This document shows positions 54,893 through 63,203 of a DNA stretch of 64,000 nt, piece by piece (the stretch's first letter is position 1; every line of letters begins with the position of its first letter). The stretch is taken from positions 62,001-126,000 of the forward strand of contig NZ_JAIBHJ010000009.1 of assembly GCF_021278025.1 (NCBI RefSeq), in the 5' to 3' direction. The position numbers and the translations under genes are program-made. A model generated the notes under the pieces. The model had not been told where the DNA came from and searched no databases. It saw nothing but the letters and a program-made list of their open reading frames with translations. This stretch comes from Motilimonas sp. E26 (GTDB lineage: Bacteria > Pseudomonadota > Gammaproteobacteria > Enterobacterales > CBDFNC01).

Positions 54893-55198
54893 ATGGCTAA
54901 GCGTGATTTACACAATGTACTGTTTCCAAAGCAGCGCAAAATCCTGACTCATTTTGGTGAAGACTTGCTGTTGGCGATGAAGCGACGTGGTTTTACTAAA
55001 AAGCTGCTGTGTGAGCGTACTGGCTTTGATCATAAAACCGTGAACAAAGTCTTCGCAGGTGATCCTGGCGTTGCCATAGGCACTTACTTAAAAGTTATGG
55101 CCGTCCTTGGCATGGAAAGCAACTTTGCAGAAATGGCCGCCCATGATGAAGTGGGTATCAAGTTGCAAAATATAAAATTGCTGGAAGGTTCAAAATGA
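54893..55198 (+). CDS. HipB-like XRE antitoxin
   Basis: 101-aa DNA-binding protein. The HTH lies in KLLCERTGFDHKTVNKVFAG, with the second half likely dimerising. It overlaps the toxin gene by four bases (ATGA), the usual toxin-antitoxin coupling. Expected to bind the three upstream dyads and hold the HipA partner inactive. It is longer at the N-terminus than many HipB proteins. Confidence 0.85.
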   Translation: MAKRDLHNVLFPKQRKILTHFGEDLLLAMKRRGFTKKLLCERTGFDHKTVNKVFAGDPGVAIGTYLKVMAVLGMESNFAEMAAHDEVGIKLQNIKLLEGSK

Positions 55199-56445
55199 GC
55201 CGTGAAATTGTCGAAGTCTATGCCGGCTGGCAGCCAATTGAAGCGCCTTTGCTAATAGGGCTGCTTTCTTACAGCGATTCAAGCAGAGGTGGCGTGTTTA
55301 GTTTTGCTTACGATAAAGCATTTTTAACCTCAGCCTATCGCTTGCAAATTGATCCAATCCTGACGCTTCACTCCGGTGTACTCTACAACGATGAAGCCGA
55401 TAAAAACTTCCGTGCATTTCTTGATTCGTCGCCTGATAGGTGGGGACGTATTTTAATGCAGCGGCGTGCGGCCATTGAAGCGCGCAAAGGCATTCGAGCA
55501 ACAAGTCGATTAAACGAGTTGGATTACCTGTTGGGCGTACATGACTCTTACCGGATGGGTGGTATTCGATTTAAGCAAGCAGGCTCGGATGCTTTCTTAG
55601 ATGACAACTCTGAGTTTGCTGCGCCGCCAATGGCTTCTTTGCGAGAGCTAGAGCACGCAGCAATGCAGATTGAAAAAGACGATAACATCGACAGTGACGA
55701 GTATTATCGCTGGTTGAAGATGCTGATTTCTCCAGGCTCATCATTAGGTGGTGCAAGGCCCAAAGCTTGTGTGGCAGATGAACAAGGCCACTTGTGGATT
55801 GCCAAGTTTCCCAACTTAAATGATACCTTTGATGTGGGGGCGTGGGAGATGGTCTGTTATGAATTGGCTTTGGCGGCAGGTGTTGACATGTTTCCAAGTG
55901 AGATTAGGCAGTTTTCCTCTGGGCATCATACCTTTTTAACAAAACGGTTTGACCGCGACGGCGATCAGCGGCTGCATTTTTCATCGGCCATGACTCAACT
56001 GCAATACTATGATGGTGAACAATCTCAAGGTGCCAGCTATTTAGAAATTGCTGAATTTATTTCCAATTCTGGTGCACAAACCGAAGCTGATTTAGCACAG
56101 TTATGGCGACGTATCGTGTTTAATATTGCCGTGTCCAATACGGATGATCACCTGCGTAACCATGGGTTTTTATTAACAAAGAAGGGGTGGAAGTTATCAC
56201 CCGCTTATGACTTAAACCCGATAGTAGGTAAGCATGGCCTGCATCTGAACATTACCGATGCAGACAACGCTTTAGACTACCAATTAGCCTTTGACGTAAA
56301 AGACTTCTTCCGACTATCTCAAACCCAAGCCACGCAAATTTACGATGAAGTATTAAATGCGGTTAAGCAATGGCAAGCCGTTGCTAAGCGGCTGGGGATC
56401 AGTCGGGCCGAGTTAGCTATGAAAAAATCGGCGTTTAACGTTTAA
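55195..56445 (+). CDS. HipA-like serine/threonine kinase toxin
   Basis: 416-aa kinase. N-terminal HipA_N-like part (FSYDKAFLTSAYRLQIDP-like opening, FLDSSPDRWGRILMQRR), a glycine loop PGSSLGGARPKACV, catalytic VSNTDDHLRNHGFLL and metal motif SPAYDLNPI. HipA kinases phosphorylate glutamyl-tRNA synthetase and cause growth arrest; target here is inferred. Forms an operon with the HipB-like gene under shared operators. Confidence 0.9.
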   Translation: MSREIVEVYAGWQPIEAPLLIGLLSYSDSSRGGVFSFAYDKAFLTSAYRLQIDPILTLHSGVLYNDEADKNFRAFLDSSPDRWGRILMQRRAAIEARKGIRATSRLNELDYLLGVHDSYRMGGIRFKQAGSDAFLDDNSEFAAPPMASLRELEHAAMQIEKDDNIDSDEYYRWLKMLISPGSSLGGARPKACVADEQGHLWIAKFPNLNDTFDVGAWEMVCYELALAAGVDMFPSEIRQFSSGHHTFLTKRFDRDGDQRLHFSSAMTQLQYYDGEQSQGASYLEIAEFISNSGAQTEADLAQLWRRIVFNIAVSNTDDHLRNHGFLLTKKGWKLSPAYDLNPIVGKHGLHLNITDADNALDYQLAFDVKDFFRLSQTQATQIYDEVLNAVKQWQAVAKRLGISRAELAMKKSAFNV

Positions 56446-56875: not shown

Positions 56876-57079
56876 ATGATCCGCTGCCATCTCGCCCGTT
56901 TAATGGGCGAACGAAAAATGCGTATTAGCGACGTAATGCGAGAAAGCGGCCTAAGTCGTACCACCATCACGCTACTGTACAAAGAAACCGCCCTAAAGGT
57001 GGATTTAGAGGCACTCGATAAGCTTTGCGAATTATTTGACTGCGAGTTAAATCAATTATTGGAGCGCATTCCTAACTAG
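56876..57079 (+). CDS. XRE-family regulator of the defence island
   Basis: 67-aa HTH protein (GERKMRISDVMRESGLSRTT, then ITLLYKETALKVDLEALDKL). It is the compact Cro/C1-type often found ahead of restriction-modification genes. It lies 48 bases before the methyltransferase start and may control the operon as a C-protein would. The ATG follows GGAG. Confidence 0.82.
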   Translation: MIRCHLARLMGERKMRISDVMRESGLSRTTITLLYKETALKVDLEALDKLCELFDCELNQLLERIPN

Positions 57080-57127: not shown

Positions 57128-58663
57128 ATGAAGAGAGAAGATATCACATACCCTGTAGTAGATCTATTTGCCGGTCCGGGTGGATTAGGGGAAGGATTTT
57201 CTGAACTACACAATTCAAATAATTCTCGAGCATTCAAGACTATCGTATCTATTGAAAGAGATGAGTTTGCTCATCAGACACTAATGTTAAGGCACTTTTT
57301 TAAATCCTACCCCAGATCATTAGTCCCTGATGACTATTATGCATATTTAGAGGGGCAAATTAATAAAAAGGAGCTGATTCAAAAAAACAGCCACAACTGG
57401 GAGCATGCCAAATCGACAGCTCTGAAAATTTCATTAGGTGAAGACACGCATGATGAAGTTCAACAGATTATTTGTGACAGACTGAAATCATCAAAGAAGT
57501 GGGCATTGATTGGTGGACCACCTTGCCAGGCTTATTCTCTGGTTGGTCGTTCTAGGATGATGAACAATCCTGAGTTTGAAGAAGACGAACGGCACTTCTT
57601 ATACAAAGAATATCTCAAAATTATCATTGATCATCGTCCTCCTGTTTTTGTCATGGAAAATGTGAAGGGCCTACTTTCAGCAAAGGTTAATGGCGAATCT
57701 GTAGTCGATAAGATCGTAGAAGATCTCCGTAGCCCTCGAAGAGCTATTGAAAAAAATAAAAATGGTCTGAAATACAAGCTTTACTCTTTGTCTCAGTCTG
57801 GTGAAGTTGTCGAAGATATTGAACCAAAATCCTTCATAGTTAGGGCTGAAGAATATGGTGTACCGCAAGCTCGACACAGAATGTTTATCTTGGGCATAAG
57901 AGCTGACATAGACGTAGTGCCCGGAACGCTTGAAAAGTCTGAACCTCCTAGTGTGGAGCAAATAATCAGCAGCATGCCCAAAATAAGAAGCAGTATTTCT
58001 AGGCGAAAAGATGATTATGATGAATGGAAGGAAGCATTGCTTTGTATAAGTGAGACATCGTGGATATCCTCAAAAAAGAAGGAAGATGTCAGCGTCAAAA
58101 AGGAGATTAAGAGTGCGCTAGCAACCATACGCAATACTCCGATGGGTAATTCTTCCACGAGATACAGACCTCCGCGCGTCATGAAATCATGGTATTTCGA
58201 CAACCGGCTGAAAGTGGCAACATGCCATGAAGCAAGATCTCATATGGTAAGTGACTTGCATCGTTATCTGTATGCTTCGGCTCACGCAAGTGCCTTGGAT
58301 ATCTCCCCTAAATTAAGAGACTTTCCTGAAGAGCTTCTTCCTGCCCATAAGAATGTCAAAGATGGTTGTGAGGGTAAAATGTTCTCAGACCGCTTCAGAG
58401 TTCAGGTAAAGTCTCGTTTTAGCACGACGATTACATCTCATATTTCAAAGGATGGTCACTATTTTATCCATTATGATCCGTCACAATGTCGGAGTTTAAC
58501 TGTAAGAGAGGCTGCAAGACTGCAAACTTTCCCAGATAACTACCACTTTGAAGGGCCGCGAACTTCTCAGTATCACCAAGTGGGTAACGCCGTTCCACCT
58601 TATTTAGCCGTTCAAATAGCTGAAGTTGTCAAAGAGGTTCTAGATAAAATGCCGGGTGATTGA
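57128..58663 (+). CDS. DNA (cytosine-5)-methyltransferase
   Basis: 511-aa C5 methylase that marks host DNA. Motif I VDLFAGPGGLGEGF, motif IV GGPPCQAYSLVGRSR (catalytic Cys), motif VI VFVMENVKGLLS, motif VIII QARHRMFILG and motif X QVGNAVPPYLAVQIAE are all intact. The region between VIII and X (about residues 270-450) is longer than usual and contains the target-recognition part. Base composition is AT-rich with many AGA and ATA codons, unlike the housekeeping genes to the left, which points to transfer. Confidence 0.93.
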   Translation: MKREDITYPVVDLFAGPGGLGEGFSELHNSNNSRAFKTIVSIERDEFAHQTLMLRHFFKSYPRSLVPDDYYAYLEGQINKKELIQKNSHNWEHAKSTALKISLGEDTHDEVQQIICDRLKSSKKWALIGGPPCQAYSLVGRSRMMNNPEFEEDERHFLYKEYLKIIIDHRPPVFVMENVKGLLSAKVNGESVVDKIVEDLRSPRRAIEKNKNGLKYKLYSLSQSGEVVEDIEPKSFIVRAEEYGVPQARHRMFILGIRADIDVVPGTLEKSEPPSVEQIISSMPKIRSSISRRKDDYDEWKEALLCISETSWISSKKKEDVSVKKEIKSALATIRNTPMGNSSTRYRPPRVMKSWYFDNRLKVATCHEARSHMVSDLHRYLYASAHASALDISPKLRDFPEELLPAHKNVKDGCEGKMFSDRFRVQVKSRFSTTITSHISKDGHYFIHYDPSQCRSLTVREAARLQTFPDNYHFEGPRTSQYHQVGNAVPPYLAVQIAEVVKEVLDKMPGD

Positions 58664-58730
58664 TGACTGATATTTTAGCGAGGGGAATGCAATTAATTAG
58701 CTTACAAGGATAAGGAAGGAGCTAATAAAC

Positions 58731-59072
58731 ATGGTTTACGAGGAGAATATTATCAAGATAGCTCTATACGTCGCCTGTAATGATGGTGTTTTATCGGAGG
58801 AAGAAGAGTCACAGCTTATAAAATCATGCTTGAGAAATTTCCCAAGCATTGATCAGAAAAAAATAGATTTTTGGATAGAAAAGTTTTTTGAAGAGGATCT
58901 TTTGCTTGAAGATTACTGCGACAAAATAGCTGAATTAGAGGACAGGCTAACAGCGCTGAATATTGCGACTGAAACGGCATCGGCTGACGGTTTAGAACTT
59001 AGGGAAAATTTGGCGCTTTCTAGGGTAATGAATTACTGGGATATTCCTTGGGAGGAAATTACTCGTGCCTGA
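58731..59072 (+). CDS. TerB-like small acidic protein
   Basis: 113-aa helical protein with two related halves: ALYVACNDGVLSEEEESQLI and TETASADGLELRENLALSRV. The A-x-x-DG-x-x-x-x-E spacing is that of TerB (tellurite-resistance/TerB family), which binds metal through these acids and often joins signalling or defence complexes. It sits inside the operon and its stop overlaps the ATPase start by eight bases. Role unknown; homology is weak but the motif pair is convincing. Confidence 0.6.
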   Translation: MVYEENIIKIALYVACNDGVLSEEEESQLIKSCLRNFPSIDQKKIDFWIEKFFEEDLLLEDYCDKIAELEDRLTALNIATETASADGLELRENLALSRVMNYWDIPWEEITRA

Positions 59073-60423
59073 ACATATTGACCTATCGCCAAACCCCAAA
59101 TCCCATATAAAGACGCTATCAAGAATAGGGTATAACCTAAACTCTGCGATAAGTGACATCATCGATAATTCAGTCACGGCAAAGTCTCAAAATATCTTTA
59201 TAGAGATGGATGTTGTTGATGAAAAAGCGGCGTTGGTTATCAAAGATGATGGCTACGGAATGGATGAAGATACGCTAATCAACTCTATGAGGATAGGTTG
59301 TAAAGATCCATCAGATATTAGAGGCGAGTCTGACTTAGGACGGTTTGGTTCTGGGATGAAGATGGCTAGTTTTTCTCAAGCGAGAAAGCTAACGGTTATT
59401 AGCAAGTGTGAAAAATCAAATGTTCAGAGTGCTACTTGGGATTTAGATTTAGTTGAGCAAAAGAATGCATGGAAATTAATTAAGCACACTGAGCAAGAAA
59501 CAGATGGGTTGTGCTCGAAGTTTAACATTGTGCTTGGACAAGCTGGAACTGCTGTAATATGGGAAAACATTGGTAAATATTATGGATTTCCAATAGCTGA
59601 ACTTCAAGCAATCTTGGGGCAAGATTTAGCCAGCTTAAAAAATTATGTTCGACTATATTTTCATAAATTTATGGAAGGTAAACAAGCGATAAGCTTTTAT
59701 TTTAATTATCAAAAATTAGAGCATTTCGATCCATTTTTGAGAAATAGAAACGGTTACCAAGAAGGCCCATCACAAAAATTTAGAGTTAAAAAGGGGGGAA
59801 GTATTGAGCTGAGGGTTCACATACTGCCTCATGAATCTAAATTGACAAAAGCTGACCTCGATAGTTTAGGTGGGGCAGACCAAATTACAGCTAGTCAAGG
59901 GCTATACGTTTATAGGGCGAACAGGCTAATTATCTCTGGGGGATGGTTTGGCCTTACTAGGCTATCACAACTTGGAAAGTTGGCTAGAGTTGAGGTGAAT
60001 GTACCCACCAGCCTAGATGAAGAATGGTCGACAGATGTTAAGAAATCCTCGCTTGAGATCCCTCATAAAGTAAAAGTGAAACTAAAACAGTTGATTAGAG
60101 AACCTATAAAAAGATCTCAAAAGACTTATCGTTATCGGGGGCGTTTAGAAGAGGCTAATGCGTTCTGGAAGGTAAATGAAAACGAAAGAGAGAAAAGCAT
60201 TAGCTATGAAATATCTAAAGATAACACTCTTCTAAAGAAGCTGCTGGTAACTCTAGATAGAGAGCAGTTATCTGATCTTATTGAGTATTTTAAACATTTA
60301 TCAGAAGAAATTCCCATTCATCATATCTATGAAAAAATGTCTTCAGAGCCCAATAAAATTAATCAGAATGATATTAGCTATGACGACTTACTAGAAGGGT
60401 TTAAAAAACTATGGAACAAGTAG
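59065..60423 (+). CDS. GHKL (MutL/MORC-like) ATPase
   Basis: 452-aa protein with a Bergerat ATP fold at residues 1-120: N box SAISDIIDNSVTAKSQNI, G1 KDDGYGMDEDT and G2 GRFGSGMKMAS. The following region (about 150-330) contains a second lobe with STDVKKSSLEIP, like the MutL transducer domain. Such ATPases act as ATP-driven clamps on DNA and were noted in restriction-modification gene clusters related to eukaryotic MORC. GTG start after GGAGG at nine bases. Coupled to the TerB-like gene before it and the Z1 gene after it. Confidence 0.87.
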   Translation: MPEHIDLSPNPKSHIKTLSRIGYNLNSAISDIIDNSVTAKSQNIFIEMDVVDEKAALVIKDDGYGMDEDTLINSMRIGCKDPSDIRGESDLGRFGSGMKMASFSQARKLTVISKCEKSNVQSATWDLDLVEQKNAWKLIKHTEQETDGLCSKFNIVLGQAGTAVIWENIGKYYGFPIAELQAILGQDLASLKNYVRLYFHKFMEGKQAISFYFNYQKLEHFDPFLRNRNGYQEGPSQKFRVKKGGSIELRVHILPHESKLTKADLDSLGGADQITASQGLYVYRANRLIISGGWFGLTRLSQLGKLARVEVNVPTSLDEEWSTDVKKSSLEIPHKVKVKLKQLIREPIKRSQKTYRYRGRLEEANAFWKVNENEREKSISYEISKDNTLLKKLLVTLDREQLSDLIEYFKHLSEEIPIHHIYEKMSSEPNKINQNDISYDDLLEGFKKLWNK

Positions 60424-63203
60424 CGATCGAAGATTGTACTAATACACTTCTTAGAATTTTCAACGAAGCTAAGGCATCTGGAGAAAAAGTTGATGAGGAG
60501 TTTATTGGAAAAACTATTGAACAGCTCAAATCGATGCTTCCACAGTATAAGACGTTTAGTGAGGATGATTGGAAGACGATAAAGTTTAAAATCGAGACAA
60601 ATATAAATGTAGAGATTGACGAGCGCCCGATTATTTTAACAAGCCCAACAGTTGAAAGGTGGTTAGATCATAAGCGTGGAGAATTGGAGTGGGACTATTG
60701 GAAGGCCTACAAAGAGTATCTTATTGATCAGGGTCGTTCATTGGACGTTATCAAGGAAACAGAAAGAACTATTGATGAAATACTAGATTGCTCAGGAGAT
60801 CCACATAAAGAGGGGAAGTGGAACCGTCGAGGACTAGTAATGGGGAATGTTCAGTCTGGTAAGACGCAAAACTATCTAGGTTTAATAAATAAAGCCATAG
60901 ACTCTGGATACAAAGTTATTGTCGTATTAGGCGGTCATCTAAACGAGCTGAGAACGCAGACACAAGAACGGTTAGATGAGGGGGTAATCGGTAGAGAGTC
61001 TAAAAAGAGGTATGAAAGCGGCCTTCCTATTGGAGTTGGAAAATACAGAGATGAAAACTTAAGAGCTGTGTACTTAACAACAACAGAAGGTGACTTCAAA
61101 AAAAATGTAGCCAATAGTTTTGGCATTCATTTTTCAATAGAAGCTCCAATAGTTTTTGTTATAAAAAAATGGGCGTCGGTACTAAATAATTTATACGAAT
61201 GGATCGCAGAAAAACATAGTCTAGATGTTGAAGCAGGACAAAAATTGAACTCTCAACTCTTGTTAATTGATGATGAAGCTGATTATGCGTCAATAAATAC
61301 CAAGCACGAAAAAGGTGATATTACTGCAATCAATAACAATATAAGAAAGATTTTATCTCTTTTTAATCGGTCTACTTATATTGGTTACACCGCAACTCCA
61401 TTTGCAAATATATTTATTGATCCAGACGAAGAACATATAAATATCGGTGACGATCTCTTTCCAGCTGATTTTATGATCAGAATACCAACTCCTGACAGCT
61501 ATGTGGGGCAAAAGCACTTTTTCCAGTCTAATAATGACACTAAAGGAGATCCAGTAGTCATCGTTGACGATAATGAAAAGCTCCTACTTGCAAAAAGTAA
61601 GAAAGATACTCCTGTTGGTGTTTTGCCTGAGTCATTAAAAGAATCAATTAGGTGTTATCTGATCACAGTGGCAGTGAGGTCTCTTCGAGGTGTGCCAAAA
61701 GCTCATAATACAATGTTAATAAACATGACTCACTTAACCGTTCTGCAAGATAAAATTGCCGAATTAGTTGATGAGTATATGTATGAAATCCGCAACGCAG
61801 CCGATTATGCACTTGGATATCCTTTGGAGACTGCTCTGGTAAAGAGCGAAGCGATTTCGGAGATCCAACATAGTTTTAACAAATTCTTCGAAGTTAGCGA
61901 AACTTTTGAAGATGTTTACCCGCATTTAAAAAGAGCTATCGGAAAGACTAGGGTATTTGCTGTTCACGGAAAATCTACTGAAAACTTAGACTATTCATCT
62001 TATAAAGCGAATGGCCTGTCGGCCATTGTGATAGGGGGACATAAGCTTTCTAGAGGGTTAACCCTAGAAGGCCTTACAGTTTCATATTTTACAAGAAACT
62101 CAAAAGCCTATGATACATTAATGCAAATGTGCCGCTGGTTTGGATATAGACCTGGATACAAAGATCTATGTAAGTTGTTCATTACTGAGGAGTCTTATGA
62201 GTGGTATGAATTTATCTCGGGCGCAATTGACGAACTTTATCTTGAGCTTGGAAGAATGTCAGAGCAAAAGAAAACTCCAGGTGAGTTCGGGCTCAAGGTA
62301 AGAGAACACCCTGGTGCGTTGCTAATCACAGCAAAACAAAAAATGAATGCCGCTCATAGCCATACGCGATCTTTAGATTTGGCTGGGCGTAGACTGAGGA
62401 AGTATGAGTTTTATGTTTCAGATGAGAATAATCTGAAAAATATGGATGTTGCCCGAAGCTTAATAAGCCAGCTAATTGACGCAGGTTTAAATAGATATGA
62501 CTCTAAAGATGGCTCAACAGTATTCTACGATGTTGATCACTCTATCGTTAGAGATTTTATTTCCAATACAAAGTACGTAGAAGGTGAAGTATCCGATGAT
62601 TTATTATTGCAATATATTTCAAAGTTAGAAAAATTAGATCTTCCTAAATTTACTGTCTGCGTTAAGAATATTAATAAAGAAATACAAACTTGGTGGTCTC
62701 AGAAGTCCGTTCAGGATGGTGATCCAGAATTGCCAAGCGTGATTTCTTTAGACCCAAGACTGCCGGAAATAAAGCCCTCAAAAAGAAAACTGTTGAAGTC
62801 TACTAGCGGCAATACTGTTTGCTGGGAAAGGCAGGAGATCGGGGACAAGCATGATGAAAAATATTTCTTACACAATCCGGATAATGCAACAAAAGAGTCT
62901 GACTCATTTTATTATATTAGGAACTCAGAGCGTAGCCAGCCAGGACTTATTATTTATACTTTAGCCGTAGGGACGCTACCAAAGAATGCCAAAAAAGATG
63001 ACGATGTTATTCTGGGTATTCCTCACAAAGATCCAACTATTAGTTACTCAATTTCTTTTCCTGTGCATGAAAATCTAAAAGGAAAATCGAAGAAGGAAAT
63101 TGATCGGATATCTAGAGATGCAAAAGTTTCCTACGTGGTAAATCAAATATGGAAAGTGTTAAATGAAGAGCAAGTAATGGAGTACGAAGAAGATGACGAA
63201 TAG
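60411..63203 (+). CDS. Z1-domain superfamily II helicase-like ATPase
   Basis: 930-aa motor protein. Walker A GNVQSGKTQNYLGLI, Walker B LLLIDDEADYASIN, motif III YIGYTATPFANIFID, and the Z1 block with LSRGLTLEGLTVSYFTRNS then LMQMCRWFGYRPGYKDLC. This family was defined alongside MutL/MORC ATPases and methyltransferases in predicted restriction systems. Probably translocates on DNA. Overlaps the ATPase gene by 13 bases and the nuclease gene by 11. Confidence 0.92.
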   Translation: MEQVAIEDCTNTLLRIFNEAKASGEKVDEEFIGKTIEQLKSMLPQYKTFSEDDWKTIKFKIETNINVEIDERPIILTSPTVERWLDHKRGELEWDYWKAYKEYLIDQGRSLDVIKETERTIDEILDCSGDPHKEGKWNRRGLVMGNVQSGKTQNYLGLINKAIDSGYKVIVVLGGHLNELRTQTQERLDEGVIGRESKKRYESGLPIGVGKYRDENLRAVYLTTTEGDFKKNVANSFGIHFSIEAPIVFVIKKWASVLNNLYEWIAEKHSLDVEAGQKLNSQLLLIDDEADYASINTKHEKGDITAINNNIRKILSLFNRSTYIGYTATPFANIFIDPDEEHINIGDDLFPADFMIRIPTPDSYVGQKHFFQSNNDTKGDPVVIVDDNEKLLLAKSKKDTPVGVLPESLKESIRCYLITVAVRSLRGVPKAHNTMLINMTHLTVLQDKIAELVDEYMYEIRNAADYALGYPLETALVKSEAISEIQHSFNKFFEVSETFEDVYPHLKRAIGKTRVFAVHGKSTENLDYSSYKANGLSAIVIGGHKLSRGLTLEGLTVSYFTRNSKAYDTLMQMCRWFGYRPGYKDLCKLFITEESYEWYEFISGAIDELYLELGRMSEQKKTPGEFGLKVREHPGALLITAKQKMNAAHSHTRSLDLAGRRLRKYEFYVSDENNLKNMDVARSLISQLIDAGLNRYDSKDGSTVFYDVDHSIVRDFISNTKYVEGEVSDDLLLQYISKLEKLDLPKFTVCVKNINKEIQTWWSQKSVQDGDPELPSVISLDPRLPEIKPSKRKLLKSTSGNTVCWERQEIGDKHDEKYFLHNPDNATKESDSFYYIRNSERSQPGLIIYTLAVGTLPKNAKKDDDVILGIPHKDPTISYSISFPVHENLKGKSKKEIDRISRDAKVSYVVNQIWKVLNEEQVMEYEEDDE

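Follow-up and report, generated by a model that had tools for sequence, protein, structure and literature searches.

Gene clusters in which a GHKL ATPase of the paraMORC/MORC type occurs with a superfamily II helicase, a restriction-fold nuclease, a methylase, and an AIPR protein were described by Iyer, Abhiman, and Aravind (2008, PMC2292703). Another report presents a 'Type II' putative defence system, in which Z1, DUF4420, a cytosine methyltransferase, and AIPR occur together with a MORC-type association, and assigns the MzaA protein of the MZA system (mzaABCDE) to the sigma-factor family (PMC9523054). TerB has already been published in two anti-phage systems, Shango, in which a TerB-like protein is combined with an ATPase and a helicase and for which anti-phage activity was shown in Pseudomonas (PMC10250203), and Bunzi, for which a TerB domain is listed (PMC10952713), so that TerB in defence is not new. 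The function of TerB in both systems is given as 'N/A' (PMC10952713), and Dionysus is a further TerB-encoding system (PMC12926258).

A TerB-like gene in an MZA-like operon

The operon analysed here lies in a 64,000-nucleotide stretch of the Motilimonas sp. E26 genome (hereafter, the window) and on the downstream DNA, for which coordinates are those of locus L011. A small Cro/C1-type HTH protein of 67 amino acids (aa) (56876–57079; Pfam HTH_26, E = 2.4e-18), possibly a control protein given its position, is encoded 48 nt before a C5-cytosine DNA methyltransferase of 511 aa (57128–58663; Pfam DNA_methylase, 1.8e-46; PADLOC DrmMII/MTase_II). The gene for a TerB-like protein of 113 aa (58731–59072) follows as the first gene of a cassette that continues with a GHKL (paraMORC-type, MzaB-like) ATPase of 452 aa (59065–60423; Pfam HATPase_c_3, 8.7e-33; PADLOC MzaB, 1.3e-55), a Z1-domain superfamily II ATPase/helicase-like (MzaC-like) protein of 930 aa (60411–63203; Pfam Z1, 2.1e-71; PADLOC MzaC, 6.7e-120), and a DUF4420 PD-(D/E)XK nuclease-like (MzaD-like) protein of 330 aa, which begins at 63193 and runs past the window end (L011:1194–2186; Pfam DUF4420, 5e-50); all of these genes are on the + strand. 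An AIPR (MzaE-like) gene is located downstream of the window (L011:2158–4263; Pfam AIPR, 2.4e-89; PADLOC MzaE, 4e-61), and on its 3' side are yicC, rph, and pyrE, named by sequence and gene order.

In its gene content, the operon matches an MZA-like or 'Type II' putative defence system (PMC9523054 for the latter). The MzaB-, MzaC-, MzaD-, and MzaE-like genes occur in the same order as in MZA according to PADLOC, whereas the sigma factor MzaA is missing and a cytosine methyltransferase and the TerB-like gene are present. None of the matches to the MzaA family NF041931 in the window genome fell within the operon or reached the family cut-off. The TerB-like open reading frame (ORF) was considered as a candidate MzaA and ruled out, MzaA being a sigma factor with a 726-position model. 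The MzaB-like (242.5 of 850) and MzaC-like (492.6 of 1500) proteins fell far short of the NCBI equivalog cut-offs, as did the MzaD-like protein (75.7 against 420), for which the query was only the part inside the window. The paper on paraMORC/MORC operons contains no occurrence of the word TerB (PMC2292703), and TerB is unmentioned in the available part of the report on the 'Type II' system (PMC9523054), whereas the window operon encodes it.

Just upstream of the restriction operon, a HipB-like HTH protein (101 aa) and a HipA_C protein (416 aa) are encoded with a 4-nt overlap (54893–56445) and are likely to constitute a HipBA toxin–antitoxin module. Beyond the downstream end of the window, L011:7235–9521 encodes three near-duplicate proteins (213–223 aa) in tandem, the first of which matches SMI1/KNR4 (SUKH-1) immunity-type domains.

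Gene structure and fold of the TerB-like protein

The TerB-like gene starts with an ATG codon, with GGAAGGAG upstream, and the GTG start of the GHKL gene (59065) overlaps its stop by 8 nt (GTGCCTGA). The same overlap is kept in both homologues found in Shewanella, that is, in all three copies, and it suggests that translation of the GHKL gene is coupled to that of the TerB-like gene. A scan for promoters and terminators gave counts no higher than in shuffled sequences. Three pairwise comparisons among the three orthologues gave dN/dS values of 0.10–0.20 for the TerB-like gene, similar to or slightly higher than those of the ATPase gene (0.09–0.13). These values confirm, at the level of sequence, that this is a real gene under purifying selection and not a chance ORF, in line with a preliminary description of this DNA that had noted its small acidic product.

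The acidity of the protein is pronounced (pI 4.05–4.19; 26 D+E against 11 K+R), and its net charge of −15 lies below the range of −11 to +3 observed across 21 canonical TerB domains. This invites the explanation that TerB is a safety device, either a DNA-mimic-like or other inhibitor or an antitoxin against AIPR or the nuclease, that holds restriction back until the host DNA has become methylated; being encoded first in the cassette, it would be synthesised ahead of the nuclease. The protein is indeed more acidic than every one of the canonical domains compared; however, many of those ordinary TerB domains are likewise acidic, and TerB folds are not known to mimic DNA. We regard such a restraining function, which the preliminary description had offered in the form of a DNA-mimic-like inhibitor alongside a metal-dependent switch, as fairly unlikely.

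The same preliminary description had assigned the protein to TerB, and this assignment held up in several comparisons. The Pfam TerB family (PF05099) matched residues 10–111 of the window protein (E = 0.0012, 19.6 bits) and both Shewanella orthologues (E = 6.2e-4 and 7.9e-4; 20.1 and 20.5 bits), all three scores being below the curated gathering score of 24.4 bits. When a profile of the three orthologues was aligned with a profile of the 21 TerB domains, drawn from the window genome and other genomes, hhalign returned a probability of 78.8 (E = 1.7e-5, 100 columns). None of 100 column shuffles reached this value (maximum, 1.8), and neither did the reversed profile (0.3) or 40 unrelated 113-aa segments of neighbouring proteins (maximum, 1.5). 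A single-sequence AlphaFold2 model (pLDDT 57) was replaced by a model from the three orthologues, which was all-helical with a pLDDT of 78.3 and a pTM of 0.71. When PDB chains were re-aligned with this model of the protein alone, the best was 2ou3 (tellurite resistance protein COG3793; Z = 8.6, 3.5 Å over 109 residues), followed by 2h5n (Z = 7.9, 3.7 Å over 108 residues) and a third chain at 4.7; since helical bundles can give non-specific matches with Z below approximately 13, what counts in this result is that both top rows are TerB-type proteins. The chain 2h5n (PG1108), whose entry title gives its function as unknown, is one that we take to be a TerB-family structure. Foldseek returned no match with E ≤ 0.001 for the single-sequence model or, against the PDB, for the three-sequence model, and the TerB structures stood apart in the re-alignment only; phmmer against PDB sequences did not retrieve TerB. 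The evidence for the fold is therefore good but not overwhelming, and supports a description of the predicted protein as TerB-like rather than as a member of PF05099.

Both of the DG-E motif halves claimed in the preliminary description exist, but only the first (D18-G19...E25) has the canonical TerB spacing. In all three orthologues, the second (D86-G87...E92) is shorter by one residue, and it requires a gap in the alignment with canonical TerB; this shortened loop weakens the reading that the protein binds metal at two sites.

Transfer of the cassette between genera

In a scan of one genome per species across 84,980 species, whose reach was confined to close relatives, the TerB-like protein had two relatives, one in Shewanella algicola (81–83% identity, depending on the method) and one in Shewanella sp. 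MBTL60-007 (85%). In both, the TerB gene is directly 5' of a GHKL gene (89–90% identical to that of the window), which is followed by Z1, and the cassette proteins of the window and the two Shewanella are 81–93% identical. In MBTL60-007, the contig breaks within Z1, and the remaining Z1, DUF4420 (88%), and AIPR (91%) end another contig; we infer from the complementary ends that the two join. In Shewanella algicola (L103:10681–12603), Z1 homology extends only to approximately residue 635 of 930, close to the end of the contig, and a search of the genome for the remainder of Z1 found nothing; this copy may be interrupted, or the assembly may be incomplete.

The borders of the shared block could be placed by blastn of the window against the two Shewanella loci (L103 and L104), in which homology begins at 58685 and 58700, respectively, 46 and 31 nt before the TerB start codon. 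The conserved 5' edge of the cassette (58685–58730, + strand) includes the TerB ribosome-binding site. The 3' edge, readable in one genome, is 8 nt past the AIPR stop. The methyltransferase gene of the window is outside the block common to the Shewanella; one Shewanella genome (G760) has a different methyltransferase, of 44–46% identity, located after AIPR, and a search of genome G759 with the window methyltransferase as the query found none. On the second MBTL60-007 contig, yicC, rph, and pyrE lie beside the cassette as in the window genome, and the DNA of the cassette is 86–87% identical whereas that of these flanking genes is 69–73% identical, indicating horizontal movement of the cassette. 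From these comparisons, the TerB-like gene has evidently moved between genera together with the ATPase, Z1, nuclease, and AIPR genes.

The shared block, the conserved overlap, and the purifying selection together argue that TerB belongs to the ATPase–nuclease cassette. The claim that it is built into the restriction operon is thereby borne out in a narrower sense, in that it was inherited with the ATPase–Z1–DUF4420–AIPR block and not with the methyltransferase. A passenger origin, in which an unrelated small stress-related gene was captured once beside the ATPase gene and plays no part in restriction, would agree with the occurrence of TerB in a single lineage of the system, but it is made less likely by the selection on the gene and its cross-genus co-transfer with the cassette. 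It also sits poorly with the overlap seen in every copy and with the lack of independent close relatives in plasmids, phages, viral contigs, and a 388-genome phylum sample, and we consider it improbable. The arrangement of the block also bears on the restraining function considered above: TerB is the first gene of what was transferred, and because the methyltransferase partner varies, an internal brake could ease the establishment of the cassette in a new host.

The yicC–rph–pyrE genes flank a defence cassette both in the window genome (L011:4397–7046) and in MBTL60-007 (L108), which suggests an insertion hotspot common to the two genomes. In MBTL60-007, a RiboL-PSP-type HEPN protein is encoded directly upstream of the TerB cassette (L104:8302–8835).

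Distribution of TerB among GHKL–Z1 clusters

With the profiles built in this analysis, on which the census of TerB rests rather than on the PF05099 search, a TerB-like ORF was found in none of 65 other GHKL+Z1 loci (30 from genomes or plasmids, 21 from viral contigs, and 14 from the phylum-wide sample; a few loci may occur in more than one collection, and in the last group, TerB was looked for within 1.5 kb on each side). The genes 5' of the ATPase differ among the clusters and include methyltransferase, Vsr-like, sigma factor, HTH, and other genes. When 388 genomes from across the phylum were searched with a profile, the copy in the window was the sole match, and no close relatives were detected in plasmids, phages, viral contigs, or E. 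coli. Among the matches listed in a PF05099 search of 58 genomes or records, none adjoined a GHKL cluster, and the window gene itself was not among them. A weak match (28% identity, E = 0.008) occurred within a 406-aa protein at locus L013 of genome G237.

TerB is therefore a rare, lineage-specific addition to a system that, with all 65 other clusters lacking it, normally works without TerB; that these clusters manage without it also counts against the restraining function. The three TerB-bearing copies form one closely related lineage of recent origin, and their association with TerB may go back to one event. The suggestion that the protein is a new subunit stands insofar as TerB is a conserved extra part of the cassette, present in two Shewanella copies besides the window, but not as a general feature of GHKL–Z1 clusters.

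Possible role of the TerB-like protein

The motifs of the GHKL ATPase are intact, with the invariant residues N35, D61, G63, G65, G95, and K99 all present in the alignment, but the protein lacks a C-terminal tail of approximately 40 residues that is present in ten other aligned members. Among the complete GHKL relatives listed, nearly all have at least 484 aa, a shorter one being a much-fragmented plasmid copy (L021). The presence of TerB and the absence of the tail thus appear to coincide, a correspondence that is only suggestive because it represents one evolutionary event.

The protein is most likely an ATPase-associated accessory or sensor subunit. On the basis of the TerB-like fold, the linkage to the cassette, the purifying selection, the intact ATPase motifs, the absent tail, and the precedent of Shango and Bunzi, we give about an even chance to its being an accessory subunit of a mobile GHKL–Z1–DUF4420–AIPR restriction cassette. 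As such, it would bind the GHKL ATPase, possibly substituting for the C-terminal tail absent from this ATPase lineage, and would modulate the ATP-driven process by which the Z1/DUF4420 nuclease complex assembles on unmodified DNA. The switch may be the binding of a divalent metal or small ligand by its acidic DG-E loops. The strongest form of this proposal, a dedicated regulatory subunit of the paraMORC ATPase that replaces the missing tail and gates the Z1/PD-(D/E)XK complex through a metal or ligand, seems rather doubtful at present; if it is true, TerB modules would serve more generally as plug-in regulators in defence complexes driven by ATPases, including Shango, Bunzi, and the system in the window.

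TerB might alternatively act upstream, sensing a Ter-type stress or nucleotide signal and switching on the cassette without directly binding the ATPase. Ligand binding has been attributed to the TerB and TerD domains, which in Ter systems might detect a signal derived from nucleosides (PMC7824862). However, neither the operon nor its immediate flanks contained recognisable Ter genes for nucleotide synthesis, the downstream pyrE being the housekeeping copy, and this mode of action has, in our view, a low probability. An ATPase-associated subunit remains the preferred reading, and the window operon offers a small and clean case for it, with a stand-alone TerB-like protein, a single overlapping ATPase partner, and 65 TerB-less relatives, so that the addition or removal of one 113-aa gene makes the effect of TerB on an ATPase-driven defence complex directly testable.

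Comparison with known TerB proteins and defence systems

The window protein resembles canonical TerB (PF05099; 2ou3 and 2h5n) in fold and length, aligns with it colinearly, and likewise has two DG-E loops; it differs in its score, which is under the Pfam gathering score, in its shortened second loop, and in its genomic context, which is a restriction operon and not a ter operon. Ter-dependent systems are reportedly the subject of a 2012 paper by Anantharaman et al. The occurrence of TerB in a Z1/paraMORC/AIPR system was not found in the openly accessible papers searched, in agreement with the preliminary view that TerB is outside the standard description of the system. The PADLOC models gave no match to the window TerB-like protein up to an E-value of 10. 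As in Shango, the TerB-like gene of the window is encoded with ATPase and helicase genes; however, the window operon differs from both Shango and Bunzi in consisting of GHKL, Z1, DUF4420, AIPR, and methyltransferase genes, and the partners of its TerB-like gene match the Mza models.
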